From Chromatium okenii (GTDB taxonomy: Bacteria; Pseudomonadota; Gammaproteobacteria; Chromatiales; Chromatiaceae): 64,000 nt of DNA. Shown piece by piece: positions 6,431 to 59,868 of the stretch (position 1 is the stretch's first letter; every line of letters starts with the position of its first letter). The stretch lies in contig NZ_PPGH01000037.1 in NCBI RefSeq assembly GCF_002958735.1, positions 558,001 to 622,000 on the forward strand, in the 5' to 3' direction. Below the pieces are notes generated by a model that saw only the letters and a list, made by a program, of their open reading frames with translations, searched no databases and was not told the DNA's origin. The translations under genes were made by a program, and so were the position numbers.

Positions 6431-8316
6431 GTGGACGTTGCGCCTGCTGAAGATTTGCTTGCCCGCACAACTGTAGTCGTAATTGCGGCTGGCTTCGAGC
6501 GATGTAACAACCACCACGTTAGACCGAGAATCAATCCCAACGCGGCATTACCAATCAGCAGATACAGACCAAAATCAAGCCATGAGAACGGCGTATCTGC
6601 TGAAGTTTTGGTTTCTTCTGGCACTGCAAAATCGAACGTGAAATTTGCATTTTCTGGTTTAACATCAATCATTTCACCGTTGCTGGTGCGTGCCAACAAT
6701 CGCGCCTGAACCTGATATTTGCCCGGTTGTGTCACCGGAATCGTCAACACCAACGGCTCGGCGTTTTGGTTGGCAAGGTCAATTACGGTCGCCAGACCCG
6801 GCGGTCCTTGAATACTCAAATAACCAGAAAGGGTTTTTCGATCAACAAGATCAGCTTCAAATTCCACCGTGGCAATGATCGCCGCCGGAGTTTTTTCATT
6901 TGGATTTTGTTGGGTGTAATGCACTTGCAGCGGCGCACCAATCAGTTTGAAGCGTTTAACCAATTGGCGTTTGAACGTTCCGCTGTCGAGCGTGACCTGA
7001 AGTTGATAGCTGCCTGGCGTCAGCAGTTGCGTTTCCAATTCAGCATGAAAATGACTGGTCGCAGCGTCGAGTTCTAAATGCACTTCAATTGGCGCAGCCG
7101 CTATTTCAGCGACCGGTTTATCAGCAGGTTTCTCTGCATGTTCAACGGGATGCGCATCTTCATGCGCAGCAACTGTATCTGCATGAGCATCAGCCGGTGG
7201 CGGTTTGACCGCAGCAGGCGCTGGCGCAGCGGCAAGGTCTAGCAATGTGAGCGTGGCGGTTGCCGTGACCAATTGCAGCAAATCACTGCGCGTCACCATT
7301 TTTCCGTGATCGGTCAACCAAGTTTCAATTGGCAGCGGTGCGCCATGACTTAACGCAGCAGGTAATGGATTGAGTTCAATTCCCAAATCCGTCACGACAA
7401 CCACCCGATTATCGGGATCAGTAACGCCTTGAAGTTGCCATTGTCCGGGCATCGGTTTGGTCAGCGTGACCAGATCGTAACCTTCTTCCTCGCGCCACAA
7501 CGCGCCAGGCTGGGGTTTAGTGGCCGAAATAGTTTTGCCATCCGGCGTAATCAGTGCGGTCGTGCGCTCGCTGCCGCGAAACGCTAACAGCGTAAATTCA
7601 GACACTTGCCCATCAATCTGAAACCGATTTCCGGTTAATGGCACGGTGGTCGGCGCTGCCGTCTGTTCCAGCATGTGCAAAAAAATCCGCTGCAATTCAT
7701 CAGCATTCGCCGCAGATTCAAACCAACCGCCAGTTTCACTCGTCAACATCCGCAGCAATTCAGTATCCACTGCATCTGAAAGCGCAATTGCATGAACCTT
7801 AACTTTTAATTCCCGCAATTGGTCAATCTGAGTAGAAAGAATACGTTCTCGTGACGCCGCACTTTGATTGGCATCTTTACTAACATCAACCAATCCATCA
7901 GTTAATAACACCAGATGGCGGTCGGTTTCTTCAATCGGTGGTTTCCAACCATCAATACCCGCGTTAATTGCTTGTTCAATGTTAGTAAATAAACCACGCG
8001 AATGAATACGATCTAACCGACTACGAGTGCGGTTTTTCCACTTATCATCTACCACACTGGGTGGTGATAACACCTCAGCTTTTTCAGCAAATAACCACAC
8101 GCCAGCTTGTGCATTGGCTGGCAGCAATTCATTCACCAAGCGCAATGCGGGAACACGCAGATTTTGCGGATCATTTTCCTTCATACTGCCAGACACATCA
8201 ATCAGCAATCGCACTTCTGGTGGTATTGCTGCTGCGCATAATGATGTAGTGCTGATGAATAATACCAGCAGCAGCGATAATTGCCGAATCAAAACGATTA
8301 ACAAAGGGCGCTTCAT
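6427..8316 (-). CDS. VWA-domain protein with signal peptide and C-terminal membrane anchor
   Basis: 629 residues. The N-terminal signal peptide (to about residue 29) precedes a von Willebrand factor A domain with the metal-binding (MIDAS) sequence DVSGSMKEN and the later TDGLVD. After the VWA domain come immunoglobulin-like beta regions, a low-complexity Ala/Pro/His/Glu linker around residues 370-410, and a C-terminal transmembrane helix (LYLLIGNAALGLILGLTWW). It is predicted to be periplasmic and tethered to the inner membrane. VWA domains bind protein partners through a divalent metal; the ligand here is unknown. The gene lies upstream of, and overlaps, the membrane coiled-coil gene. Confidence 0.85.
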   Translation of the reverse strand: MKRPLLIVLIRQLSLLLVLFISTTSLCAAAIPPEVRLLIDVSGSMKENDPQNLRVPALRLVNELLPANAQAGVWLFAEKAEVLSPPSVVDDKWKNRTRSRLDRIHSRGLFTNIEQAINAGIDGWKPPIEETDRHLVLLTDGLVDVSKDANQSAASRERILSTQIDQLRELKVKVHAIALSDAVDTELLRMLTSETGGWFESAANADELQRIFLHMLEQTAAPTTVPLTGNRFQIDGQVSEFTLLAFRGSERTTALITPDGKTISATKPQPGALWREEEGYDLVTLTKPMPGQWQLQGVTDPDNRVVVVTDLGIELNPLPAALSHGAPLPIETWLTDHGKMVTRSDLLQLVTATATLTLLDLAAAPAPAAVKPPPADAHADTVAAHEDAHPVEHAEKPADKPVAEIAAAPIEVHLELDAATSHFHAELETQLLTPGSYQLQVTLDSGTFKRQLVKRFKLIGAPLQVHYTQQNPNEKTPAAIIATVEFEADLVDRKTLSGYLSIQGPPGLATVIDLANQNAEPLVLTIPVTQPGKYQVQARLLARTSNGEMIDVKPENANFTFDFAVPEETKTSADTPFSWLDFGLYLLIGNAALGLILGLTWWLLHRSKPAAITTTVVRASKSSAGATST

Positions 8317-27984: not shown

Positions 27985-28020
27985 TCCCCCCTTTGAAAAA
28001 AGGGGGGCGAGGGGGATTTA
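27985..28020. repeat. C-run/G-run palindromic repeat, copy 1
   Basis: A run of C followed by TTTGAAAAAA and a run of G, then CGAGGGGGATTTA. It abuts the secF stop codon on the minus strand and may act as a transcription terminator or mRNA end for secF. Same family as the copies at 34 kb, 43-51 kb. Confidence 0.8.
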
Positions 28021-34269: not shown

Positions 34270-34369
34270 TTCCCCCCTTAGCAAAAGGGGGGTTAGGGGG
34301 GATTTCTCCTCGGCGTCAAAGGCTTGAATCTTTAAATCCCCCCTGCCCCCTTTTGCTAAGGGGGGAAAT
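34270..34369. repeat. Inverted pair of C-run/G-run repeats, copies 2 and 3
   Basis: One copy at 34270-34306 (TCCCCCCTTAGCAAAAGGGG, then GGTTAGGGGGGATTT) and a second in inverted orientation at 34332-34369. Each copy is itself palindromic and the two are also complementary to each other across a 25-nt spacer, so the whole 100 bp can fold into one long hairpin or a cruciform. It lies between the parA stop and the ubiG start, both on the minus strand. Confidence 0.85.
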
Positions 34370-36387: not shown

Positions 36388-36393
36388 ATCTCC

Positions 36394-36420
36394 CCAACCC
36401 CCTTTTACAACGGGGGTTGG
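36394..36420. terminator. Hairpin after sodB, member of the C-run/G-run repeat family (copy 4)
   Basis: CCAACCCCC at 36394-36402 pairs perfectly with GGGGGTTGG at 36412-36420 across a 9-nt loop TTTTACAAC. It starts 6 bp after the sodB stop. There is no T-run, but the very stable stem would stop or protect a transcript end. Confidence 0.65.
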
Positions 36421-42660: not shown

Positions 42661-43253
42661 TTGATGAACGCAGAGCACCAAGATTTGCCGCACGGTTTCA
42701 TGCTGATTCAAGGCAACCGACTGGAAAATCTGTGTGAACTGCTGGTGGCATGGCTGAAACGTCATCCGCTGCCGCCGTTAGAAAATGACGTGGTGCTGGT
42801 GCAAAGCAACGGCATCGCGCAGTGGCTGAAGTTGGCGATTGCCGCAGATGCGACTGGCTGCGGCATTGCGGCGGACTGACGTGACGCTGCCGGGGCGGTT
42901 TATTTGGCAAGCGTATCGGCAAGTGCTCGGCGATTTGCCGCACAGCTCGCCGTTTGACAAAGAACCGTTGACGTGGCGGCTGTATCGGCTGCTCGGCAAT
43001 TTGGATGCGCTGGCGGAGATTTTTGCGCCACTCACCGGCTTTCTCAGCGGTGATGATCACGCCCGCCGTCGTCATCAACTCGCAGCAAAACTGGCCGATC
43101 TTTTCGATCAATATCAAGTCTATCGCGCCGATTGGCTGACTGCGTGGCAGGACGGCGACGACGTGCTCATCCGTCCGCATGGCAGCCGCGAACCAATTCC
43201 CGAAGCGCAGCGCTGGCAACCCGCGTTGTGGCGGTTGCTAGTGGCGGATATTC

Positions 43254-43325
43254 AAATCCCCCCCGTAAAGGGGGGAGAAGAAAAGCCCCCCTTTGAAAAA
43301 GGGGGGTTGGGGGGATTTATCAAAA
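43254..43325 (+). repeat. Palindromic C-run/G-run repeat inside recC, copy 5 (double)
   Basis: Two copies in tandem follow GCGGATATTCAAATCCCC. They are read within the recC frame as ADIQIPPVKGGEEKPPFEKG and LGGF. The standard RecC sequence has no such segment at this point between LWRLLVA and the next conserved block. Confidence 0.8.
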
Positions 43326-45228
43326 CAGGGCGGTTGGGGGATTTATTGAACAAGGTGAATTCACCACCGCCAGCCGCGCTGCCGTTCACCGTGCTTTTTT
43401 AGAACAACTGCGCACTGCGCCAGCTCCACGTTTACCCGCCGCATCATCGTGTTTGGCATTTCCGCGCTGCCGCGCCAATCGCTGGAAGTGCTCGCCGCGA
43501 TTGCTGTTCACGCGCAGGTGTTGCTGTTTGCGCACAATCCCAGCCGTCATTACTGGGGCGATCTGGTCGCCGAGCGCGAATTGTTCCGGCAGGATTATCG
43601 TCGCCAGCCACCGCGCCAGCGCCCACCGATCACCGATGCTGCCGCGCTGCATCTGCACGGTCATCCGCTGCTGGCGGCGTGGGGCAAACAGGGGCGCGAT
43701 TATCTGCGGCTGTTGGACGAGCACGATCAGCGCAGCCAATACGAGGCACATTTTCAAGCTGCCGACATGCCGATTGATCTGTTTGAATCGCCCGGCAACG
43801 ACACGCTGCTGCATCAATTACAAGACGACATTTTGGAATTGCGTTCGTTGGCGGAGCGGCAGGCGCTGCGCACCGTCATTGATCCGGCAACTGACCGCAG
43901 TCTGGAATTTCTGATTGCGCACAGTCCGTTGCGCGAGGTGGAAATTCTGCACGATCAATTACTTGAAGCGTTTGCGCTGGCGGAACACGCCGGAACGCCG
44001 CTCGCGCCGCGTGACGTGCTGGTGATGGTTCCCGACATCAACAGTTATGCGCCAGCCGTGACGGCCGTCTTCAAACGCCGTTATGACGATCCGCGCCGCA
44101 ACATTCCGTTTCACTTGCCGATCAAGGACAAACTGTCACCAATCCGGTGTTAATCGGGCTGGCGACGCTGCTCAATCTGCCGCAAGCGCGGTTTAGCGTC
44201 ACCGAGCTGGTGGATTTATTGGACATCGCGGCGCTGCGCGAGCGGTTCGGCATTGACAACGCGGATGTGCCGCAACTGCGGCGGTGGATCGGTGGCGCGA
44301 ATATCCGCTGGGGCTTGTCTGCCGAACATCGCGCCAGCTTGGGTTTTCCGCCCGACTTGAGACAAAACACTTGGGAATTCGGTTTGCAGCGGATGTTGCT
44401 CGGATTTGCCAGCGGCGCAGGCAGCGCGTGGCAAGGCATTGAACCCTATGATGAAGTTGGCGGTTTAGATGCCGCGCTGATTGGACCGCTGGTGCAATTG
44501 CTCAATGCACTGGAACGGGCATGGACGGTGCTGCAAATCCCGCGTTCTGCGTCGGACTGGGTGGCGTTATTGGCGCAGACGATGGACGAGCTGTTTGTTG
44601 CCGTCAGTGATGCCGATCAACTCGCGCTGGCGCAGGTGAGAGCTGCGCTGGAGAAATGGGCGCTGGAATGCCAAAACGGTGAATTAGCTGAAGAATTGCC
44701 GCTGGAAGTGGTGCGTGAAGCACTGCTGGCGCGATTGGATCAGCCGACGTTGACGCAGCGATTTTTTGCGGGCGCGGTCAATTTCGCCACGCTGATGCCG
44801 ATGCGAGCAATTCCGTTTCGGCACATCTGGCTGCTGGGCATGAACGATGGCGATTATCCGCGCAATTATCACCGCGCCGATTTTGATTTGATGAGCAACG
44901 ATTACCGCCCCGGCGACCGAGCGCGGCGCGAAGATGACCGTTATTTGTTTTTAGAGGCGCTGCTGTCAGCCCGCAAGCGGCTGGTCATTAGCTGGGTTGG
45001 GCGCAGCATCCGCGATGATTCGACGCGCCCGCCGTCGGTTTTAGTCGGGCAATTGCGCGATCACCTTGCCGCTGGCTGGCGGTTAGCCGACGGATCGAGC
45101 ACGAATCTGTTGGACGCTTTGACGACCGAACATCCGTTGCAGCCATTCAGTGCGCGTTATTTTCAGCCGGAGCGGTCGCCGCGTTTGTTCACTTACGCGA
45201 ACGAATGGCGAGCGGCGCATCACCAGCT

Positions 45229-45367
45229 AAAACCCACCTTTAGCAAAGACCACGAAAAGCCCACCTTTGGCAAAGGAGAGCAGCTAAAGCCCCCCTTTAG
45301 CAAAGGGGGTTGGGGGGATTTGAAAGAAGAAATCCCCCCCGACCCCCCTTTTACTAAGGGGGAGACA
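45229..45367 (+). repeat. Cluster of palindromic repeats inside recC, copy 6 (several units)
   Basis: Two degenerate units (CCCACCTTTAGCAAAGA and CCCACCTTTGGCAAAGG) are followed by two well-conserved ones around 45290-45365. They are translated in frame as KPPFSKGGWGDLKEEIPPDP and PFTKGE, between QLKPTF and the downstream RecC sequence ALGLFLRQPLKTFYTQRLGL. Confidence 0.8.
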
Positions 45368-46289
45368 AATCAGCCAACTGAAAACTGCCAACTGACAACT
45401 TCGGCGCTGGGATTGTTTTTGCGCCAGCCGCTCAAGACCTTTTATACCCAGCGACTGGGGCTGTATTTCAACGCGGATGACAGTGCCGCTTGATGATGAG
45501 CAGTTCACTGTGGAACAGTTTGGAAGTTGGCAATTGGGCGATGTGTTGGATGCAGTGAAAACCGCGCTGGCACAAGATGTTAGCGTTGACACTGCCCGTT
45601 GTTTACGCGATGCCGCCGCACAATTGGCACGTGCTGGCGCATTGCCGCTGCCGCCGTTTGCCGCAGCATTGATGGATAAGTTGCTCGCCGAACTGACGGA
45701 GCCGGTAGCGCAATATCAAACGCTGTTAACGCAGTATGCGCGGCGTTGTCCGGCGGAAAGTATTCAGCTTGAAACTCTGAATGACGCGCTCAACGACATT
45801 CGCAGCGATGCCGCTGGCAACCGAATTATTCTGCAATTACAAGCCAGTAACCTGTATTCCGGCGCTATGCGAAATGGAGGCGATTGGTGCGGGCGTGGCC
45901 GCTGCATCTCGCGGCGCAATTCGGCGGCGCCACCACCACCCATATTTTCGGACCAAAAAGCGATTTCGTTCTCAATCCGCTGCCAGCAGAAACGGCGCAA
46001 ACCTATTTGCTGGCGCTGCTTGACGGCTATCAACAGGGCATCAGTCAACCGCTGCCGCTGGCGTGTGACACCGGTTTTGCCGCGCTCGCCGCCAACGCCG
46101 GGCGCAGTGTTAATCTGGTAAAAACCTACGAAGGCGATGATTTCAACGCCCACCAGCCCGGCGAATGCGCCAGTCATCCCGGCTATCGGCGGTTCTGGCC
46201 AACCTACGCTGAACTCGCTGCCGATCAACGGTTTATCGTTAATTGCCCAGTTGTATCAACCGCTGTTTGATCACGTTTACAGCGCGGAT

Positions 46290-46330
46290 ATACAAATCCC
46301 CCCAACCCCCTTTTTCTAAGGGGGGAGAAG
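46290..46330 (+). repeat. Palindromic repeat at the recC 3' end, copy 7
   Basis: GCGGATATACAAATCCCCCC leads into CAACCCCC, TTTTTCTAAG and GGGGG. As sequenced it puts a stop (TAA) into the recC frame; one more T would give ADIQIPPTPF-SKGGEETPQR and a TAG at 46348. The flank matches those of copies 5 and 8. Confidence 0.75.
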
Positions 46331-46612
46331 AAACGCCGCAGCGGAGCTAGACGTATGAACGACGCACTGAATCCGTTGACTTTTCCGCTCACCGGCACTC
46401 GGCTGATTGAAGCCAGCGCCGGCACCGGCAAAACCTTCACGCTGGCGCTGCTGTATGTCCGACTGGTGCTCGGTCACGGCGATGACAACTCGGCATTTCC
46501 GCGCCCATTAACGCCGCCGCAAATTCTGGTGGTCACTTTCACTGATGCAGCAACCAAGGCACTGCGCGACCGGATTCGGGCGTTGCTGGTCGCAGCGGCG
46601 CAGTGTTTTGAG

Positions 46613-46655
46613 GCGGATATTCAAATCCCCAATCCTTCTTTTTCTAAGGGGGGAA
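46613..46655 (+). repeat. Palindromic repeat inside recB, copy 8
   Basis: GCGGATATTCAAATCCCCAA followed by TCCTTCTTTTTCTAAGGGGGG. Read in the recB frame as EADIQIPNPSFSKGGSDASE, between AAAQCF and LLALRETYAPNEWAECA. The C-arm has diverged, so the palindrome is weaker while the frame is kept open. Confidence 0.78.
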
Positions 46656-49572
46656 GCGATGCGTCGGAATCGTTGCTGGCACTGCGCGAAACCTATGCTC
46701 CGAACGAATGGGCGGAATGTGCGCAGCGCCTGCGTTTAGCTGCGCAATGGATGGACGAGCGATGATTTCGACCATCCATGCGTGGTGTTATCGAATGCTG
46801 CAAGAACACGCTTCGACACTCGCGGGTTGTTCACGCGGGAACTCGTCACCGATCAAACCGAATTGCTGGCGGAAGTGGTGCGCGATTATTGGCGCGTTCA
46901 TTTTTATCCGCTGGAACCCGCACAAGCGGCATTGATGCTGGGCGTGGTGAAATCGCCAGAAGAATTGCAGAAAAAACTCAAGGTGTTGCTGGCGCGGCGC
47001 GAAATTCCGCTGGCGCATCAAGGGCAGCTGCTCGTCGTTGATTCGCTCGCTGATGTGTTGGCGCAAGCGCAGTTGCAGCATGGAACAACAAGCGCGGAAT
47101 TTGTGGCAAGCGGATCAAGCCAATCTCGAACAGCAATTGCGCGGGCTGCGCGAGCATTTCAACGGCAATGTTCACGGCAGCGCCAATGCCGACAAATTCG
47201 AGGAATTGCTGGCGGAAATCGCGGACTGGGCGGCTGGTGCGCTGCGCCCAATAAATTACTGAGCTTTGCGCAGGGCGCATTTCGGTTCAGAAAAGGCGCG
47301 AAAATTCAAACTGAAATCGTCCATCCGGCATTTCAGGCGCTGGCGAATTTGCAGCAGTATCAAGCACAACCGCAATTGCCATTCGCCGCTCAAGTGCTGG
47401 CACACGCCAAACAATGGGTGGCGAAAACGCTCGATGAGCGCCAGCAATTACGCGCCGAAATGGGTTTTGATGACCTGTTGCGGGAATTGGAGGCAGCGCT
47501 GGCGCGGTCTGCTGCGGATGCGCCAAATGGAGCCAGTTCTCGTCTCGCCGCCATCATTCGCGCTCAATTTCCCGTCGCGTTAATCGACGAATTTCAAGAC
47601 ACCGATCCGCTGCAATACCTGATTTTTAATCACATTTATGGCGTTGCTGCGAACAACCCGAACACGGCGCTGATTTTAATCGGCGACCGAAGCAGGCGAT
47701 TTATGGCTTTCGCGGCGCAGATATTCACACCTATTTGACAGCGCGAGCTGCGACAACTGGGCGTCATCACCGGCTGGGCGTGAATTACCGTTCCACCAGC
47801 GCCGTGATTGATGCGTGTCAACGGTTGTTTGCGCCCGCAGAAACTGGGTCGTCACGCGGCGCGTTTCGGTGCAAAACCGACGACGGTCACAATCCGATTC
47901 CGTTGCAAACCGTGATCGCCAGCGAACGTTGCATCCGCGTTTAATTTTGGACGGCGTGGACGCAGTCGCACTCACGTTTGGACGCTCGACGGCGTGGACG
48001 AGCAGCCCGTCAGTCCCGGCGTTACCGCGAGCAGATGGCGGCTGCGACTGCACCCAACTGGTACGTGGTTTGCGCAAGCCGCTGAAGGGAAAGCCGGTTT
48101 TATTGACGGCGAGGTGTTTCAACCGCTGCGCGGACAAGACATCGCCATTTTGGTACACACCGGCACGGAAGCGCAGATCATGCGCGAGGCGCTGGCAGCG
48201 CGGCGGATTCACAGCGTCTATCTGTCTGATCGGGAATCGGTTTTTCAAACTGAAGAGGCAAAAGACCTGCTGCATTGGCTGCGAGCAGTCGCTGCGCCAA
48301 CTGATGACCGTGTGGTGTGCGCCGCGCTGGGAACCAACACGCTGGCGCTGCCGCTGGAGCATTTGGCGCAACTGCAACAGGATGAATTGGCGTGGGAAGC
48401 GCAGATCGAGCGGTTTCGCGGTTATCAATTGCTGTGGCAGCAGCAAGGCGTACTGACAATGCTGCGGCAGTTATTGCACGATTTCGCATTGCCAGCACAG
48501 TTGCTCCAGCAGCCCAACGGCGAGCGTATCCTCACGAATTTATTGCATTTATCCGAATGGTTGCAGCAGTCAGCAACTGCGCTTGACGGCGAGCAGGCGC
48601 TGATTTGGCATCTCACTGCGCATCTCGACAGCAGCGGCGACGAGTTCATTCAACGCCTTGAAAGTGATGCAGAATTAGTGAAAGTCATCACCATTCACAA
48701 AGCCAAGGGTTTGGAATATCCGCTGGTGCTGCTGCCGTTTATCTGTCATTGGAAAGAGGTTGATGACAAAACGCGTCAAGTGCTGTATCGCAACGGTACA
48801 CAGACCTTTTTGGAAGTGGCGGGAAAAAACAGTTTGCGGAAGCGTGGGAAGCAGCGGATGAAGCGCGATTGAGTGAGGATGTGCGGCTGATTTATGTCGC
48901 CGTCACTCGCGCCCGCAATGCGCTGATGTTGGGTGTCGCACCGTTAAAAAGTGGCAATGTAAAAATTCCGCAGTTGGAAAAATCGGCTTTTGGTTACTTG
49001 CTCAATGGCGGTAACAAGTTTGCGAGTGCAGCGGAAGTGTGGACGGCGCTGGCGGAGCTGCAAGGCGATTGTCCGCATCTGCGCATTCAGCCAGCGCCTG
49101 CGCCAACTGCCACTTGGTTTACGCCGCCACCGACCGCGCAATTGGAAGCAGCGCGAGTCGCTAATTTTTCGCTACCGTCGCGTTGGTGGATTGCCAGCTA
49201 TTCGGCGCTGAAAACCATCACGGCTGCCGAGCCAGAAACACCATTGCAAAACAGAGTGTTAGAAGAAGCAGAACTGGAAAGATTGAGCATCGCGCCGCAG
49301 GAATCGTTTGCGTCCGAACTGCGCCAACTACATGATTTTCCGAGAGGAACGCGCTCTGGAACCTTTTTGCACGGCATTTTGGAATGGGCTGCGGAGTGCG
49401 AAACCCGTGACGCTGACGGTCAATTGCTGTTTGGTTTTGCCGCAGCGGCTGCGTCTGCGCCAGCACGATTGGAAATGTTAAAAAATCGCTGTGCATTGAA
49501 TGGATTAACTGAATGGATTGTCCCGCTGGAGCAATGGCTCGGCGCTTTTCTCAATCAAACGTGGTCACTTGA

Positions 49573-49685
49573 AATCCCTCCCGCCCCCCTTTTTCAAAGG
49601 GAGAGAAATCCCCCCTGCCCCCCTTTTACAAAGGGGGAGAAAGAAAAGCCCCCCTTTAGCAAAGGGGGGTTGGGGGATTTGATGA
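49573..49685 (+). repeat. Cluster of palindromic repeats inside recB, copy 9 (three units)
   Basis: Three units in a row, alternating in orientation, are translated in frame as EIPPAPLFQRERNPPCPPFT, then KGEKEKPPFSKGGLGDLMKQ. They separate LNQTWSL from WGDLHCAISRQML in the linker before the RecB nuclease domain. Confidence 0.8.
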
Positions 49686-50208
49686 AACAAGTGAGTTGGG
49701 GAGATTTGCATTGCGCGATCTCGCGCCAAATGCTATTCAAGTTGAAATGGAATTTTGGATTGAAAGTCATGGCGTTAAAACGACCACGCTCGATCAATTA
49801 GTGCAGAAACATTGCCAGCCCAATCAACCGCGTCCACCGCTCGCCAGCAATCAATTAAACGGAATGCTCAAAGGATTTATTGATTTGTTATTGGTGCACG
49901 AGGGGCGTTATTACGTCGTCGATTGGAAATCGAATTGGCTTGGCAAAGATGATGCGGCGTATACGCGAATGGCGATGCAACTGGAGATGCTGCATCACCG
50001 TTATGATTTGCAAGCCGTGTTGTATGTGCTGGCGCTGCATCGGCTATTGAAAGCGCGATTGCCAAATTACGATTATGACGCGTGATATTGGCGGCGCGAT
50101 TTATGTTTTTCTGCGTGGCGCAGCAACAGCCAGTCAAGGGTTATTGATGGATAAACCGCCGCGTCAATTGATTGAAGAAATTGATGAATTATTTGCTGGC
50201 GCAGCGCG

Positions 50209-50979
50209 TCAATCCGCAAACGAAATCAATCCGCGCTGACTGGATTGAATAAACTGCACAATCTGCGCCGTTTCTGGGCTGGGATATTCTAATTCAGCTT
50301 GAATTAACGCTGCGCTAAACGCAAACCAGAACGCATAATTAACCGATAAACCGCTTTAATTTGACTGCGCTGAATTTGCGTAAATCCATTGCGGCGCAGC
50401 CCGACTACATTTAATCCAATCATTCGGCTCGATGTCCATCCGCAACGCAAACGGCGGCACATCTGCGCCACGCCCGTCACTCCCGCCACCATGCATACGC
50501 GCCAATGCGACAGAATTGATGCACTGCACTTGACCAGATAAAAATACGCGATCTTCAATCGTGACATGCCCGCGAGCGTGGCGGTATTGGCAAAGATATT
50601 GTGATCGCCAATCACGCAATCATGCCCAGCATGTGAAAATGCCATCCAATAATTATCGTTGCCAATTCGGTGCCTTCGTCGATTTAATACCGCAACTGAT
50701 ATTAACGCCTTCTTTGAAATGATTGCGGTCGCCAATGGTTAATGGTTTAGCGCGGTCGGGAGTGAAAGTGAAATCCTGCGGCTCGGCACCGAGCGTCGCT
50801 CCGTGACACACGCGGTTATTCATGCCCATGCGCGTATTGCCATAAATACGCGCACAGCTATCAATAATGCAGCCAGCACCAATGACAGCTCCTGCTTCAA
50901 TAATTGAATACGCGCCCACTTGCACCGTGTCGTGCAATTGAGCGCCAGCTTCAATAATCGCAGTGGGATGAATCCGCAT
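50209..50979 (-). pseudogene. lpxA: UDP-N-acetylglucosamine acyltransferase LpxA, frameshifted
   Basis: Starts at 50979 ([15 protein letters not shown]) with left-handed-helix hexapeptides: [19 protein letters not shown] and [13 protein letters not shown]. It continues in other frames: YWMAFSHAGHDCVIGDHNIF (catalytic His region), HVTIEDRVFLSGQVQC, AGVTGVAQ, DVPPFALRMDIEPNDWI, GLNVVGLRRNGF, and finally ALIQAELEYPSPETAQIV with a TGA at 50209-50211. The span equals the usual 256 residues. LpxA starts lipid A synthesis and is essential, so the breaks are probably sequence errors. No fabZ or lpxD is adjacent. Its 3' end overlaps recB by 31 bp. Confidence 0.88.
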
Positions 50980-51006
50980 GTTTAACTTTAACCCTTGCCA
51001 ATCGGA

Positions 51007-51050
51007 CTAAAAGCCCCCTTTGAAAAAGGGGGTTGGGGGATTTATAAAAG
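51007..51050. repeat. C-run/G-run palindromic repeat between purH and lpxA
   Basis: AAAGCCCCCTTTGAAAAAGG then GGGTTGGGGGATTTATAAAA. It lies between the lpxA start and the purH stop, both on the minus strand, so it probably serves as a transcript boundary. Confidence 0.75.
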
Positions 51051-51061
51051 GGCTGGAGGAT

Positions 51062-52625
51062 TTAATGGCGGAAATGGCGCATTTCTGTGAAGATCATCGC
51101 CATGCCATGTTCATTCGCAGCGGCAATGACTTCAGCATCGCGCATGGAGCCACCCGGTTGAATCACGGCAGTAATTCCTGCTTCGCGGCTTGATCAATGC
51201 CATCGCGGAATGGAAAAAACGCATCGGATGCCATCACTGCGCCAGCAACAATTAACCCGGCGTGTTCGGCTTTAATGCGTGCAATTCGCGCCGAATTCAC
51301 CCGGCTCATTTGCCCGCGCCAACGCCGATGGTCATTTGTTCACGGCCATAAATAATGGCATTGGATTTTACAAATTTAGCCACGCGCCAGCTAAATAATA
51401 AGTCGGCATATTCCTGTGCAGTGGGAGCGCGTTCGGTGACCGTTTTGACCTGTTCGGTGAGACACAAATCCGCATCTTGCACCAGCAATCCGCCGTTGAC
51501 TCGTTTGAAATCAAGGCGATACGCAGGTTCTGCATTCCAAGTGCCGCATTCGAGCAGCCGTACGTTTTGTTTCGCGGCGACGACGGCACACGCAGCGGCG
51601 CTGATGCGCGGGGCGATGATGACCTCAACAAATTGCCGTTCCACAATGGCTTGCGCGGTTTCTGCGTCGAGTTCGTCGTTAAACGCGATGATGCCGCCGA
51701 ATGCCGATTCGGGATCGGTTTGATAGGCGCGGTTGTAGGCGTCGAGCAGGCTGGTGCTGACAGCGACGCCGCACGGATTGGCGTGTTTGACGATCACGCA
51801 GGCGGGCGCTCCGCTGAATTGTTTGACGCATTCGAGCGCGGCGTCGGTGTCGCCAATGTTGTTATAAGACAGTTCCTTACCTTGAATTTGGCGGGCGGTG
51901 CTGATGCCAACTTCGCTGTGATCGTGTTCGACATAAAACGCGGCATGTTGATGCGGATTTTCGCCATAACGCAGCGCCTGCTGACGCTTGAATTGCAGGC
52001 TCAAGGTGCGCGGGAAGGCGCTGTTTTCACCCACCGCAGTCGCCACGCGGGCACCGAGATAATTGGCAATTGCGCCGTCATAACGCGCAGTGTGTTCAAA
52101 CACTTTGACTGCCAAATCAAAGCGCGTTGCGACACAAACGCCGCCGTTGCGCTCCAGTTCGGACAAGACGCGGGTGTAATCCGCTGCATCGACGACGACG
52201 GTCACGCCGGCGTGATTTTTGGCGGCAGCGCGTAGCATGGTCGGGCCGCCGATGTCGATGTTTTCAATCGCAGTTTTCAAATCGCAGTCGGGATTGGCGA
52301 CGGTCTGCTCGAACGGGTACAGATTGACGACCACCAAATCAATCGGCGCAATCGCGTTGGCCGCCATCACCGCCTCGTCAATGCCGCGTCGTCCCAAAAT
52401 GCCGCCGTGAATGCGCGGATGGAGCGTTTTGACGCGCCCGTCCATCATTTCAGGAAAACCTGTGTAATCAGAGACTTCAATGACGGGGATGCCGTGCGCG
52501 GTGAGCAGTTTGGCAGTGCCGCCGGTGGAGAGAATTTCGACGTTGTGCGCGGCGAGGGCGAGGGCAAAATCGACTACTCCGGTTTTATCAGAAACGCTAA
52601 TCAGGGCGCGATGAATGGCTTGCAT
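51062..52625 (-). pseudogene. purH: Bifunctional AICAR transformylase/IMP cyclohydrolase PurH, two frameshifts near the 3' end
   Basis: The ATG at 52625 opens a frame of about 439 codons: [113 protein letters not shown]. It stops at 51306; other frames continue with [33 protein letters not shown] and [18 protein letters not shown], ending RHFRH and TAA at 51062. Adding one C at about 51304 and one G at about 51187 restores the whole. It performs the last two steps to IMP. It follows dusB by 36 bp. Confidence 0.93.
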
Positions 52626-52661
52626 CAAATTGAGTCCGAACGTCGTTAAAGGGTTGAAAAT

Positions 52662-53698
52662 TCAAGTTATATCCGCGCAGCGGGCGAAAAATGTTTGCAC
52701 CAGCGCGGTTTGTTGGGCTGGCGTCTGCGCCTGATTGACCGTTGCCCGAAATGCCGTCGCCTGAGGAAAGCTGCGGCAATACCACGCGAGATGTTTACGC
52801 GCAATTTGCACGCCCATGGTTGCGCCATAAAATTGATATAATTCATCAAGATGGGTGCAGACAAGCGCGGCAATCCAGCTGGCGCGGGCAGTGGCGGCGG
52901 GGCAACGCCGGTGGTCAATTCCGCCGCGAGATCACGAAATAACCACGGTCGCCCTCGCGCAGCGCGTCCAATCATAATCGCATCCGCCCCGGTTGCATCC
53001 ACAATGCGGCGAACGTCCTCCGCCGTAGCGATGTCGCCGTTGGCAATTAAAGTGCCAGTGAACACCTCGCGGACGGCAGCCAGCGTGTCGTGTTCGGCCG
53101 GAATGTTGTAATGACAAGCGCGAGTGCGTCCGTGTACGGTCAACGCCGCAATGCCAGAATCGTGCGCGATGTGCGCAATGGCGGGCGCGTTGCGGGTTTC
53201 TGGCGACCAGCCGGTGCGAATTTTCAGCGTGACCGGCACCTGCACTGCCGCGACGACCGCCGCCAAAATCCGCCCAACCAATGGCTCATCGCGCAGCAAA
53301 GCGGAACCGGCAGCGACGCGGCAGACTTTCTGCGCGGGACAACCCATATTGATGTCAATAATCTGCGCACCTAAATCGACATTCAACTGGGCAGCTTGCG
53401 CCAATTCAATTGGGTTTGCGCCGACAATTTGCGCGGCAATGATGCCGGATTCACCGCTATAATCAAGACGGCGCAATGATTGACGACTGCCCCATAATGC
53501 CGTATTCGCTGCGACCATTTCCGCTACAGTATAACCGGCACCGAATTGGCGACATAACACACGAAAGGGGCGATCCGTAATTCCTGCCATTGGCGCGAGC
53601 ACCAGATTATTCGCAAATTGATAGCGCCCAATTGTGAATGGATGCAAAACGTTTTGCGTTCCAATGCGTTGATCGTGTATTGAAAATGAATCAAGCAT
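52662..53698 (-). pseudogene. dusB: tRNA-dihydrouridine synthase B, frameshift near the 3' end
   Basis: The main frame contains LVLAPMAGITDRPFRVLC, DINMGCPAQKVCRVAAGSAL (catalytic Cys in KVC), LTVHGRTRACHYN, LIANGDIATAEDVRRI and DAIMIGRAARGRPWLF, all Dus FMN-binding and catalytic motifs. After about residue 285 the frame changes; the true C-terminus reads through YGATMGVQIARKHLAWYC to FFARCADIT and a TGA at 52662-52664. It reduces uridines in the tRNA D-loop. It starts 2 bp after the glgP stop and precedes purH. The fis gene that normally follows dusB is missing. Confidence 0.9.
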
Positions 53699-53700
53699 TT

Positions 53701-56196
53701 TTACCGTTCAACAGTCACTGGCGGAACATTCCAAATGTTTTTGGCGTATTCAACAATTGCCCGATCTGATGAAAATTTACCCATTCGCGCCACGTTCAAA
53801 ATCGACATGCGATCCCAATTTGCAGCATCGCTCCACGCAGTACTCACTTGCGCTTGACACTCTAAATAAGCACGGTAATCAGCTAACACCATAAACGGGT
53901 CATGGTTAATTAAATGATCAGTTAATGGACGAAATAACACCATGTCGCCGCGTGAAAAATGACCAGAGTTAATTAAATCAATATCAGCTTTTAACTCCGG
54001 GTCAGCGTGATAAAGCTCCCAAGGTCGATAACCTTCACGCTGTTTTGCAGTCACCTCAGCCGCTGTCATACCGAATAAAAAGAAATTCTCCGCTCCAACT
54101 TCTTCGCGGATTTCGACATTCGCACCATCTAATGTGCCAATCGTCAATGCACCATTCAATGAGAATTTCATATTGCCAGTGCCAGAGGCTTCTTTACCGG
54201 CGAGTGAAATCTGTTCTGACAAATCGGCTGCTGGATACAACCGTTGACCATTTTTAACATTGAAATCTGGCATAAACGCAACGCGAATTCGCCCATTGAC
54301 TAACGGATCATGATTAACTACTTCTGCAACCGCGTTAATGAGTTTAATAATAAGTTTAGCGAGATAATAGCCGGGCGCAGCCTTACCGCCAAAAATGAAT
54401 GCTCGTGACACAATTTCTTGATTGGGATTCTGTTGAATGCGCTGATATAACCGAATGATATGCAAGATATTCAGATGCTGGCGTTTGTATTCATGCAGCC
54501 GTTTTGCTTGCACATCAAACATGGCTTGCGGATCAAGCACGACGCCCGTTTGTTGCTGCAACCAATTCGCAAAATCTTGTTTTGCAGCAATTTTTACCTC
54601 GCGCCACCGCTGTTGCAATTCAACATCATCGGCATGGTGTTCTAAATGACGCAACAGACTCAAATCACGAATCCAATCGTTATGCCCGCAAGTGTGACTA
54701 ATTAAATCTGCCAGCCGAGGATTACTCACGACCATAAAGCGCCGAGGCGACACGCCATTGGTAACATTATGAAATTTCTCTGGCCATAGGTCATAAAAGT
54801 CATTAAATAATGTCGTCTTCACTAATTCTGAATGTAGTGCAGCAACACCATTCACTGCTTGACTGCCAACCACCGCCAAATTCGCCATGCGGACACGTCG
54901 TTGTTCTCCCTCTGCAATCAGTGACATCCGAATGACCCGTGTCTCATCATCTGGAAATTTTTCGCGTACCTGATTGAGAAAATCTTGGTTAATTAAATAA
55001 ATAATTTCCAAATGACGTGGCAATAATCGCTCAAATAAAGCGACTGACCAAGTTTCTAATGCCTCTGGTAATAGCGTGTGATTGGTATAACAAAAAGTGT
55101 TGCGGGTAATCGTCCATGCTTGTTCCCACGCCATGCCGTGCTCATCAATAAATAACCGCATTAACTCTGCTACAGCCAGAGCCGGATGCGTGTCATTCAA
55201 TTGCGCAACAAATTTATTTGCAAAAGTATCGAGTGAACCAACAGTATTGAGGTGTAATCGAATCATGTCCTGTAATGAACAGGATACAAAAAAGAATTGT
55301 TGTTTTAATCTTAATTCCTTGCCTACCTCTGGCTCATCATTTGGATAAAGCACCTTAGAAATGGTTTCAGCCTCAATTTTTGCATGAACTGCGCCGTAAT
55401 AATCACCGACATTGAATGCCTGAAAATCAAATGACTGCGGTGCTTCCGCTTTCCATAATCGCAACAGATTCACATTGCCAACGCCATAACCGAGAATTGG
55501 CGTGTCGTAGGCAACGCCATTGATTTCTAAACTCGGCAACCAACGATGGCGCAATGAACCATCTGCATGACGATATTGTTCGGTATAACCACCAAAGCCA
55601 ATTGGAAAACAGATTTTGGGACGCGGAATTTCCCACGGATTACCATTGCGTAACCAAGTGTCACTACGTTCTACCTGCCAGCCATTTTCAATCGTTTGAT
55701 CGAAAATACCAAATTCATAACGAATACCATAGCCAATTGCGGGAATACATTGGGTTGCTAATGAATCCATAAAACAGGCAGCCAAGCGACCCAAACCACC
55801 ATTACCTAATCCTGGTTCCTCTTCTTCTTCTAAAATCATTGCAAAATCTAGTTCCAATTCCGCAGCAGATTCTTGCGAAATTTTGGTAATTCCCAGATTG
55901 ACTAAATTATTTGCTAAATGTGGGCCAAGTAAAAATTCTGCTGATAAATAACATACGGTACGCGCACGATTGACTTTGAATGCCTGCGCTGATTTTACCC
56001 AGCGTGCTAGTAGTCGATCGCGTACCGTATAAGCGGCAGCCATATACAAATCATGCGATGTTGCAACTTCTCGAAAGCGTCCTTGAATATAAAAAAGATT
56101 ATCAATATAAGCCTGTTTTAATGCTTCTTTAGACATTCCAGTACGGGTATGTTCACGATTGGGTGAAAGTAGTTTAGTCGATTGTGCTGTACTCAT
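53701..56196 (-). CDS. glgP: Glycogen/starch/alpha-glucan phosphorylase
   Basis: 831 residues, intact. Landmarks: YYLSAEFLLGPHLANNLVN, EPGLGNGGLGRLAACFMDS, QLNDTHPALAVAELMRLFID, TNHTLLPEALETWSVALFE, NGVSPRRFM, and the PLP-lysine region EASGTGNMKFSLNGALTIGT, then DGANVEI. It releases glucose 1-phosphate from the non-reducing ends of stored alpha-glucan in the cytoplasm. It fits functionally with the two GH57 genes. It starts a minus-strand run with dusB and purH. Confidence 0.97.
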   Translation of the reverse strand: MSTAQSTKLLSPNREHTRTGMSKEALKQAYIDNLFYIQGRFREVATSHDLYMAAAYTVRDRLLARWVKSAQAFKVNRARTVCYLSAEFLLGPHLANNLVNLGITKISQESAAELELDFAMILEEEEEPGLGNGGLGRLAACFMDSLATQCIPAIGYGIRYEFGIFDQTIENGWQVERSDTWLRNGNPWEIPRPKICFPIGFGGYTEQYRHADGSLRHRWLPSLEINGVAYDTPILGYGVGNVNLLRLWKAEAPQSFDFQAFNVGDYYGAVHAKIEAETISKVLYPNDEPEVGKELRLKQQFFFVSCSLQDMIRLHLNTVGSLDTFANKFVAQLNDTHPALAVAELMRLFIDEHGMAWEQAWTITRNTFCYTNHTLLPEALETWSVALFERLLPRHLEIIYLINQDFLNQVREKFPDDETRVIRMSLIAEGEQRRVRMANLAVVGSQAVNGVAALHSELVKTTLFNDFYDLWPEKFHNVTNGVSPRRFMVVSNPRLADLISHTCGHNDWIRDLSLLRHLEHHADDVELQQRWREVKIAAKQDFANWLQQQTGVVLDPQAMFDVQAKRLHEYKRQHLNILHIIRLYQRIQQNPNQEIVSRAFIFGGKAAPGYYLAKLIIKLINAVAEVVNHDPLVNGRIRVAFMPDFNVKNGQRLYPAADLSEQISLAGKEASGTGNMKFSLNGALTIGTLDGANVEIREEVGAENFFLFGMTAAEVTAKQREGYRPWELYHADPELKADIDLINSGHFSRGDMVLFRPLTDHLINHDPFMVLADYRAYLECQAQVSTAWSDAANWDRMSILNVARMGKFSSDRAIVEYAKNIWNVPPVTVER

Positions 56197-57411: not shown

Positions 57412-58631
57412 CTAACGTCCTTTGCGCCCAGCAACCCGCAGCCGCAACGCATTCAAACGAATAAAACCGGTCGCATCCTTTTGATCGTATGCGCCAGCAT
57501 CTTCTTCAAAGGTCGCAATTGAAGCGTCAAATAAGCTATTTGTTGCCGATTTGCGTCCAACGACCATCACATTGCCTTTGTATAGTTTCAAGCGCACTTC
57601 GCCATTCACCACTGCCTGCGTCTGGTCAATTGCTGCTTGCAGCATGTACCGTTCCGGTGCAAACCAATAGCCGTTGTAAACTAAGCTGGCATAACGCGGC
57701 ATTAATTCATCTTTCAAATGCGCTGCTTCACGATCTAGCGTCAATGATTCAATGGCGCGGTGCGCTTTTAATAGAATCGTTCCGCCGGGTGTTTCATAGC
57801 AGCCGCGTGATTTCATACCGACATAGCGGTTTTCAACGATGTCGGCGCGACCAATACCCTGTGCGCCACCAATGCGATTGAGTTCTGCTAATAATTCCGC
57901 CGGACTGAATGGTTGTCCATTGATTGCTACTGCATCGCCATGTTCAAACGTTAATTCAATGGTGAGTGGTTGATCAGGGGCTTCTTCTGGTGCAACGCTC
58001 CAGCGCCACATATCCGCGCCGGGTTCAATCCATGGGTCTTCAAGATCATAGCCTTCGTATGAAATATGCAGCAAATTGCATCCATTGAATACGGCGATTT
58101 GGTTCCATCGCGTTTCATTTCTACCGCAATGCCATGCGCGGCAGCGTAATCCATCAATTTTTCACGCGATAATAAATCCCATTCGCGCCAAGGGGCGATG
58201 ATTTTAATGTCGGGATTGAGTGCATAGGCAGTTAATTCAAAACGCACCTGATCATTGCCTTTACCGGTCGCACCATGCGCAATGGCATCTGCGCCTGTTG
58301 CAGCAGCAATTTCAATTAAGCGTTTGGCAATTAACGGACGCGCAATTGAAGTGCCGAGCAGATATTCGCCTTCATAAATCGCATTGGCGCGAAACATGGG
58401 AAAGACGAAATCACGCACGAATTCTTCGCGTAAATCATCAATGTAAATTTCTTTTACGCCTGCCGCTGTCGCTTTAGCACGAGCTGGCTCTAATTCTTCG
58501 CCCTGTCCAACATCTGCGGTAAAGGTGACAACTTCGCAGCCGTATTCTTCTTGCAGCCATTGTAAAATCACCGACGTATCTAAACCGCCGGAATAGGCTA
58601 AAACCACTTTTTTAATTGCGCCATGCGCCAT
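57412..58631 (-). pseudogene. argG: Argininosuccinate synthase ArgG, one frameshift
   Basis: The ATG at 58631 begins [20 protein letters not shown] (ATP pyrophosphatase P-loop SGGLDTS). The first frame runs through [29 protein letters not shown] and SPYSMDA, then breaks at about 58070. The second continues [35 protein letters not shown] and [17 protein letters not shown], to 57412. Adding one A to the AA at the break gives [12 protein letters not shown], so a homopolymer error is likely. Joined it is about 406 residues. It joins citrulline and aspartate in arginine synthesis. argH and other arg genes are not adjacent. Confidence 0.94.
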
Positions 58632-58654
58632 TTTATGCACTCCACATTCACATG

Positions 58655-58672
58655 AAAAAAGCCCGTTTGGGC
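58655..58672 (-). terminator. Terminator-like hairpin in the argG leader
   Basis: On the minus strand GCCC-AAAC-GGGC is followed by six T, 24 bp before the argG start. The 4-bp stem is short. It could attenuate argG transcription or be a chance structure. Confidence 0.35.
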
Positions 58673-58739
58673 GAAAGCAAAGTATTCGTTTTTGTGTTAT
58701 CTGTTGTCAGATTATTGTGAAACTCAACGCAGAATTGCT

Positions 58740-59868
58740 ATGTTAAACGTGATTGATCGTTATTTGCTGCGCGAAATCGCCAAAGTGTTTGCGCGATTGT
58801 CATCATTTTACTGTTGATTGTGACCAGTTTGATGTTTTTGCGCATTTTAGAAGAAGTCAACCTCGGTGGTCTCAATGTTGAACTGGTGTTTACGGTGTTG
58901 CGGCTGCAACTCCTCCGCGATAGCGCCAGCCTGTTACCACCCGCATTTTTTCTCGCTGCGCTCGTCACTTTGAGCCGTTTATCGCGTGATAGCGAACTGA
59001 TTGCGCTGAATGCGTGTGGCATTGGTCCGCCGCGTTTATATCGAATTGTGCTCTTACTGGCGCTGCCGGTGGCATTGCTGACGGCGTGGTTTGCGCTGTG
59101 GTTGCAGCCCGAAGCGGCGAGCGCGATTCAGGATATTCGGTTGCAGCAACGCGAGCAGGCAGCGCAGCTTGCGGGGTTACAGCCGGGGCGCTTTTATGTC
59201 GAAGAAAACGGTCAAGTGGTGATTTATATTGGCGAAATTACCGACGCAAAACGCTGGGCAATCTCTTCATTCTCGATCGGCGCAGCGCACCAACGCAGTT
59301 GGTGATGAGCGCCGGCGGCAGTCATCGCCTCGATCCCGTGACTGGCGATCATCTGGTCACACTGAAACAGGGACAGCGGTTTGATGGCAATCCCGGCGCA
59401 GGTGCATTTTTGATCGGTCATTTTGAGGATTATCTATTACGGATTCGCAGCGACACTCCGCCGCAGCGGTTTCCGTCAAAACGCGCCGCCTTGCCGACAG
59501 CGGCACTGCTGGCAACGCCGGAACGTGGCAATCGTGCGGAGTTGGAACACCGAATCGCTGCGCCGTTAGCGATTATCACGCTGTCGATATTGGCAATTCC
59601 GCTGGTGGAAATTTCGCCACGCCAAACTGCAACCGGGCGGTTATTACTCGCGCTGCTGGCGTATTTCTGCTTTTTCAATTTGCAACGGCTGGCGGAAAGT
59701 TGGCTGGAAACTGGCGTGACGCCCTTGTGGATCGGCAGCCTGTGGTATCAATTCGTTATTCTCGGCGCAGTGCATTTACTGCTGCTGCCGGAGAGTTTTT
59801 GGCTGAAACGCGCACGTCAACAGTTTGCGCGTGTACCAGAATCAAGAGGTTGCACGATAACCTCTTGA
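58740..59868 (+). pseudogene. lptF: LPS export permease LptF, two frameshifts
   Basis: The ATG at 58740 starts MLNVIDRYLLREIAKVF; the next frame gives IVIILLLIVTSLMFLRILEE, a long stretch with RDSASLLPPAFFLAALVTLS and LRLSRDSELIALNACGIG, and VEENGQVVIYIGEI; the last frame gives LGNLFILDRRS and LEHRIAAPLAIITLSILAIP to the TGA at 59868. One C lost at about 58793 and one A lost at about 59252 account for both breaks. LptF with LptG and LptB forms the inner-membrane ABC transporter that extracts LPS. lptG, normally next, is absent: the following gene is on the opposite strand. Confidence 0.9.
59842..59868. terminator. Hairpin at the lptF stop between convergent genes
   Basis: TCAAGAGGTT at 59842-59851 and AACCTCTTGA at 59859-59868 form a perfect 10-bp stem with a 7-nt loop; the last bases are the lptF stop codon. 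It lies 12 bp from the end of the convergent DUF3050 gene and suits a bidirectional terminator, though without a T-run. Confidence 0.6.

Follow-up and report, generated by a model that had tools for sequence, protein, structure and literature searches.

The genes recC and recB of the purple sulfur bacterium Chromatium okenii LaCa lie one after the other in the 64,000-nucleotide stretch of DNA analyzed here (C38:558001–622000, hereafter the window; the genome, G000, comprises 3,784,749 bases in 45 contigs), and they carry copies of a short palindromic repeat in which a C run is followed by a G run. An earlier reading made from the letters of the window (the sequence-only reading) had placed five such copies in frame inside the two genes. 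All five palindromes are present, together with further copies elsewhere in the window (Table 1), and four of the five lie inside the genes. The exception is copy 3: when recC is read in its fitting frame, the stop codon falls inside this copy, ahead of the recB start at 46355. Chromatiaceae are among the nearest named relatives of the RecC, and most of the 80 named loci are from Pseudomonas.

Table 1. Genes, repeat copies, and a repeat-bearing segment in the window (positions are window coordinates).
Feature	Position	Strand	Remarks
recC, interrupted by changes of frame in the assembly	42664..46328	+	Pfam/NCBIfam matches; tblastn with intact relatives
recB, interrupted by changes of frame in the assembly	46355..50238	+	Pfam/NCBIfam matches; tblastn with intact relatives
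Copy 1, recC	43254..43347	+	Shifts from frame 2 to frame 1; triplex-type block at 43286
Copy 2, recC, array	45229..45367	+	Frame 2 kept across the copy; triplex-type block at 45290
Copy 3, 3' end of recC, ahead of recB start	46284..46331	+	
Copy 4, recB	46613..46655	+	Frame 2 kept across the copy; net gain of 9 codons
Copy 5, recB, array	49573..49690	+	Shifts from frame 2 to frame 1; triplex-type blocks at 49606 (- strand) and 49649
Segment of 77 bp 3' of recB, holding a copy (core at 51014)	50984..51060		Missing in G006
Further copy	27986..28019		
Further paired copy	34272..34366		
Further weaker copy	36392..36417		

The repeat unit reads AAATCCCCCC-NN-CCCCCCTTT-NNN-AAAGGGGGG or its reverse, and occurs singly, as facing pairs (those measured in the sister genomes G002 and G006 span 71 to 183 bp), or as arrays with decayed middle units. 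The palindrome follows a triplex-type pattern, CCCCCCTTT-N3-AAAGGGGGG-N2-3-GGGGGGATTT. An ITxF is described as three consecutive triplex-forming blocks of 6–15 nt separated by loops of 1–6 nt (PMC4666352), and five places in the window fit this description with a C/T block, N3, an A/G block, a short loop, and a G-rich third block; the assignment follows from the block-and-loop pattern. Four of the five places belong to copies 1, 2, and 5 and the fifth is at 51014, while copies 3 and 4 did not fit the strict triplex pattern. The two longest recBC copies gave strong folds, with energies of −53.8 and −56.3 kcal/mol (z −4.6 and −3.7 against shuffles), and the other three of the five folded copies were not clearly stabler than shuffles (z −1.65, −0.51, and −0.99). 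An Rfam scan of the window gave no match, nor did a blastn search of PLSDB with a 76-nt element, for which low-complexity masking is perhaps the reason.

Among the seven genus members compared (G000–G006), the strict module AAATCCCCCC-N2-6-CCCCCTTTNNNAAAGGGGG occurs 128 times in G000 (63 + 65), 67 times in G002, and 19 times in G006, and a search of G001, G003, G004, and G005 found no copy. The core CCCCCTTTNNNAAAGGGGG is present at 184, 93, and 24 sites in the three module-bearing genomes, respectively. In a control search the backward-read pattern had no occurrence, which places the strict module far above chance. Of the genomes sampled more widely, 6 of 77 in the family and 19 of 369 in the class have the strict module. 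Upstream (5') of AAATCC, strong conservation was not seen in G002, G000, and G006, and a subset of the copies in these genomes shows apparent decayed tandem modules there. Several contigs of the sister genomes (C1, C37, C39, and C65 of G002; C5, C14, and C22 of G006) start at most about 75 bases from a repeat core, as if the assembly had broken at repeats, so the copy numbers in G002 and G006 are probably too low. The strict module was also seen in 97 stretches of IMG/VR viral contigs (L225–L304), which would be either prophages whose hosts are rich in repeats or vehicles of the repeat.

Alignment of RecB and RecC with relatives showed that the repeat is missing there and that the loops are shorter, in agreement with the proposal that the copies are insertions. 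The copy 1 site measures 102 bp in C. okenii and 22 bp in G006, the copy 2 site 154 and 61 bp, and the copy 5 site 131 and 9 bp, respectively. The common left flank pointed out in the sequence-only reading, GCGGATAT(T/A)CAAATCC, indeed has three exact matches in the window (43244, 46284, and 46613). Its 15-base form was found in only 1 of the 398 loci examined, which include 35 other C. okenii stretches, and that locus (L001) is the same place; the flank is thus not a general part of the element. In G006 the copy 1 site holds ACGGATATTCAA without the repeat, and copies 3 and 4 may therefore stem from copy 1 plus its flank.

The claim that all copies are read in frame held for copies 2 and 4 and failed for copies 1 and 5 (Table 1), each of which would need one more base to have a length divisible by three in tblastn comparison with intact relatives. 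To read recC and recB through in this assembly, the frame has to be changed about 15 times, including once across each of these two copies. RecC is one open frame in all 14 other genomes, and RecB in 10 of the 14; in the remaining four (G001, G023, Thiospirillum jenense DSM 216 [G025], and a metagenome-assembled genome of Thiorhodococcus [G028]) RecB was not found in the stretch. These breaks raise the alternative that recC and recB have decayed in this strain, or are an artefact, and that the in-frame reading of the repeats is chance. The density of single-base losses relative to G006 is in keeping with it, being 2.47 per kb in recBC (42661–50240; 17 in 6,896 aligned bases) against 0.63 to 1.46 per kb in the three other stretches compared (20 in 13,743, 2 in 3,167, and 10 in 10,001). 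Annotation of this genome likewise lists 708 of the 3,792 genes as pseudogenes (PMC6374484).

The damage, however, is not peculiar to recBC. The stretch that follows (50241–54000) is equally bad, with 13 losses in 3,631 aligned bases (3.58 per kb), and the two stretches together hold 30 losses versus 5 gains. When the other open reading frames (ORFs) of G006 were mapped, 19 of the 23 stayed in one frame, and the four broken ones lie in pairs at 51065–53656, beside recB, and at 57415–59865; an even density of frameshifts along the window was thus ruled out, since they cluster. Both 50241–54000 and 57415–59865 are probably low-quality assembly. The broken genes in the former are, by sequence likeness, presumably purH and dusB. 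With these two genes broken and about 15 frame changes in recBC, reading frames are unreliable here. The assembly was made with canu from PacBio RSII reads alone at about 25x (24–27x for the long contigs), and the main text of its report contains neither "polish" nor "quiver" (PMC6374484). Neither recC nor recB is open here; the damage to purH and the PacBio-only assembly nevertheless led us to favor local assembly error over decay, and copies 1 and 5 would then be in-frame copies missing one base in a C or G run. Decay would, moreover, touch only the recBC of this strain, and the pattern stands in the clean genomes G002, G006, and G025. We therefore regard this alternative as improbable, although it is the likeliest of the four rival explanations.

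In the two clean sister genomes, 46 host ORFs carry the repeat (38 in G002 and 8 in G006). A Pfam domain scored above the cut-off in 28 of the 30 G002 host ORFs scanned, and the hosts in this genome include leucyl-tRNA synthetase (LeuS), the purine enzyme PurL, MurG, MurF, NAD synthase, DsbD, a CheA-type kinase, an AcrB-type pump, a competence protein, YhdP, and histidine kinases. Comparison with solved relatives located the extra segments. PurL has 43 residues (619–661) where its relative has 16 (625–640), and MurG has 48 residues (174–221) where its relative has 15 (166–180), between the two domains; the excess is about 20 residues in MurF and about 13 in LeuS. The segment lies in a loop or linker in all four aligned hosts with a clear insert. 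LeuS lacks the segment in G000, G006, and G004, to which the comparison was confined, the LeuS of G001, G003, and G005 having been matched by search. For MurG, G006 and G004 have short linkers in place of the 48-residue segment of G002, and C. okenii has the G002 segment lengthened by 48 bp (16 codons) on one side and by 30 bp on the other. In G006 the linker reads KPHLEKSEFE and might derive from a copy by decay. The sequences show that the in-gene copies of the clean genomes are read through in frame in host enzymes that are otherwise complete, and that orthologous sites bear longer or shorter versions across species. Besides, the LeuS frame of G002 (L216:3–3050) has about 145 residues upstream, of which residues 2–105 match separate genes in G000, G006, and G001; this part is either a fusion or simply a long open frame.

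In order to count copies in genes, a core was called in-gene when its ORF reached 200 aa in length and extended for no fewer than 50 codons to either side of the core. Of the 93 cores of G002, 83 were read with their surroundings; after removal of 6 that lay at the ends of stretches, 56 of the remaining 77 are in genes, against 431 of 575 random places in the same stretches. The corresponding counts are 9 of 18 cores (20 of 24 read, 2 dropped) against 132 of 170 random places in G006, and 15 of 32 against 86 of 138 in T. jenense. The same core behaves differently in five genomes in which it avoids genes, two within the family (G440, 5/26; G428, 3/19) and three outside it (G273, 2/15; G315, 0/25; G208, 0/13), so that only 10 of 98 cores are in genes (7, 2, and 1 cores were dropped in G440, G273, and G208, respectively). 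Compared with the three genomes outside the family, the difference gave p ~1e-16 for G002, 3e-5 for G006, and 6e-5 for G000, values that are too small because the cores within one array are not independent.

The core is open in 4.7 to 5.9 of the six frames on average in all eight genomes, the five avoiders included, so openness follows from the letters of the core, and the possibility that the element evolved to be open was discarded because the core is also open where copies avoid genes. Stop-type spacers (TAA/TAG) were also considered as the cause of the gene habit and were rejected on the mixed counts among the avoiders. In the stretches read, such spacers number 0/82 in G002, 0/86 in G000, 3/25 in G006, and 2/31 in G025, and among the avoiders 17/28 in G273, 18/29 in G440, 3/12 in G428, 0/10 in G315, and 0/4 in G208.

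The 65 in-gene cores of G002 and G006 are distributed over forward frames 0, 1, and 2 (12, 8, and 20 cores) and reverse frames 0, 1, and 2 (15, 0, and 8), with 2 unoriented. The empty class, reverse 1, often contains TGA, and frames bearing TGA fail the ORF criterion by themselves. The proposal that the palindrome keeps one open frame thus had to be abandoned, as five of the six orientation-frame classes are in use, which suggests that the DNA, rather than one peptide, spreads. Several frames are indeed used, yet the flanks keep one frame in the clean genomes.

Many sites are shared between species. Counting sites with both flanks mapped in the examined stretches, not all of which are in genes, the repeat was at the same place in 8 of 10 site pairs between G002 and C. 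okenii, 5 of 7 between G006 and C. okenii, and 3 of 3 between G006 and G002, rates that are inflated because the stretches were picked for bearing repeats. Segment lengths differ at the shared sites, and one empty site was found (L184 of G006 compared with L376 of C. okenii). The frame seems to differ at some shared sites, but every pair showing this includes the error-prone assembly of C. okenii. The sharing of sites, and the keeping of a segment in essential enzymes, might indicate domestication, in which the peptides encoded by the repeat are under selection for function in their hosts. We consider this quite unlikely: the five classes give different peptides, lengths vary at one site, the LeuS segment is missing in sisters, the hosts have no common function, and the shared sites are over-counted, both sets of stretches having been picked for repeats.

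An origin as RAYT-driven REPINs that entered genes by chance has even less to recommend it. The small palindromes, the facing pairs, and the size recall REPINs. The domain PF01797 (Y1, RAYT), however, is matched 6 to 13 times per genome in the four genus members that lack the module and not at all in the three that bear it (G000, G002, and G006), and RAYT was accordingly discarded as the mobilizer within the genus. Least probable of all is that the segments remain untranslated through ribosome skipping or removal at the RNA level: the strong folds of the two longest recBC copies and the off-frame state of copies 1 and 5 could be read in this way, but three of the five folded copies are no clear folds by comparison with shuffles, and skipping needs no open frame, yet 56 of the 77 G002 cores lie in frames open on both sides.

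We consider it likely that a triplex-type palindrome entered many protein genes in the C. okenii group (G000, G002, and G006) and in T. jenense, as a tolerated mobile repeat located in loops and linkers and with turnover of modules at fixed sites. The Pro/Phe/Lys/Gly-rich segments would be translated and tolerated as flexible loops, and copies that break genes would be mostly purged by selection. Modules may be gained and lost via slippage, template switching, or gene conversion, aided by the hairpin or triplex. Short homology is seen at the insertion ends of recC copy 1, recB copy 5, and the L184/L376 pair, a handful of sites taken without a control; that empty sites resemble the element ends (AAATCC/GGATTT) is only an idea at present.

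Several observations weigh against this explanation. Of the 69 cores counted in C. okenii (75 of 184 read, 6 dropped), only 22 are in genes, against 205 of 328 random places, and copies 1 and 5 of its recBC are off frame. In G002, by contrast, the in-gene share equals the random share, whereas insertion at random sites with survival of the in-frame cases alone would predict a share of about 0.45 to 0.5; this excess means that plain insertion plus selection does not explain the gene share. A constant target-site duplication of the kind that marks a MITE was not seen in the few empty sites compared, apart from a possible TTTAA around 50984–51060, and the mobility of the repeat is something that we infer from its presence and absence among genomes. 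A clear extra segment was not seen in the GH1 host on comparison with its solved relative. The AlphaFold model of a RecC fragment (mean pLDDT 51.4) was too poor for any loop and was not used.

The high in-gene share of G002 invites a bolder proposal, which we hold to be doubtful: the palindrome may spread nearly blind to genes and nearly harmlessly, its segments being rewritten at fixed sites in new lengths, and perhaps new frames, while the gene is kept. If true, this would mean either mostly in-frame copying (template switching or gene conversion that starts from short homology with the AAATCC/GGATTT ends) or a lineage in which selection against extra loops is so weak that many proteins drift through peptides encoded by the repeat. 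C. okenii and T. jenense are both very large-celled species, and the repeat habit may be linked to polyploidy or a small effective population size. With sisters that have and lack copies, shared sites of differing length, and hosts with solved relatives, the group offers a natural experiment on the tolerance of essential enzymes to extra sequence and on the spread of palindromes without a known transposase.

The RecBC proteins of the genus also hold segments other than those in Table 1. At the copy 2 site of recC, AACTGACAACTG-type short repeats occur both in C. okenii (45370–45400 of the window) and in G006 (L031, near 6960–7022), so this RecC loop houses two kinds of repeats. In the clean genome G002, RecC carries a separate in-frame segment, IPPSPPFAKGG, elsewhere in the protein. 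Other palindrome-like in-frame segments were seen in RecC and RecB of the module-free sisters G003 (L034), G004 (L032), and G005 (L033). One of them, PSPQPLSPRGEG in the RecB of G003, is encoded by DNA with a hairpin resembling the triplex motif TMECO, in which a third block is visible by eye; ERSRR-type segments and PSTPLRTG are further examples. The RecBC loops of this family may be collectors of unrelated palindromes.

Among known repeats, REP/REPIN elements are small palindromes that occur in facing pairs at high copy number, are associated with RAYT, and are extragenic. The Chromatium repeat shares the first three features; it differs in that RAYT is missing from G000, G002, and G006 and in that it is not confined to extragenic DNA. 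The 107-bp Correia elements of Neisseria and the ERIC/RU-1 elements of enterobacteria are described as small repeats with open frames that are fused in frame to genes (PMC2229807), as is the case here, and differ by the terminal inverted repeats and target duplication listed for them in the same paper. In structure, the closest counterparts are the G/C-rich intrastrand triplex motifs (TM and TMECO), which likewise consist of a C-rich block, a short loop, a G-rich block, a short loop, and a second G-rich block, and which share the high copy number, the patchy presence in relatives, and the paired inverted copies. The TMECO pattern, CCCTCNCCC-N3-6-GGGNGAGGG-N3-GGGNGAGGG, is not matched by the module, whose blocks are C6T3/A3G6. 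As described by Holder et al. (2015, PMC4666352), TMECO is always intergenic in E. coli MG1655, in contrast to the in-frame copies within genes of the Chromatium group, and triplex motifs are suggested to promote rearrangement; the turnover of the present repeat would be in keeping with such an effect. Within the open-licence literature, we found no account of triplex-type repeats in frame within genes, and none of repeats in Chromatium genes, which bears out the expectation that such use is not well described.

The best-known cases of repeat-encoded peptides in frame within conserved proteins come from Rickettsia, and the sequence-only reading had likened the recBC copies to Rickettsia palindromic elements (RPEs). 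The likeness holds in kind: the RPE is a palindrome of similar length that occupies intergenic DNA as well as in-frame positions within conserved protein genes, and a palindrome fused in frame in conserved, essential-type genes is what the sister genomes show, far more broadly than in RecBC. For the RPE inserted in the Rickettsia guanylate kinase, the insert is reported to be translated and the protein active, and RPE insertions are described in 19 reading frames (PMC2229807), compared with 46 host ORFs here in two genomes. The RPEs differ in their letters, which are presumably unrelated, and the present repeat stands apart in its many frames, its modules and arrays, and its hosts, which are free-living phototrophs. 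Phototrophs of the Chromatiaceae thus show the same phenomenon as Rickettsia with a presumably unrelated repeat.

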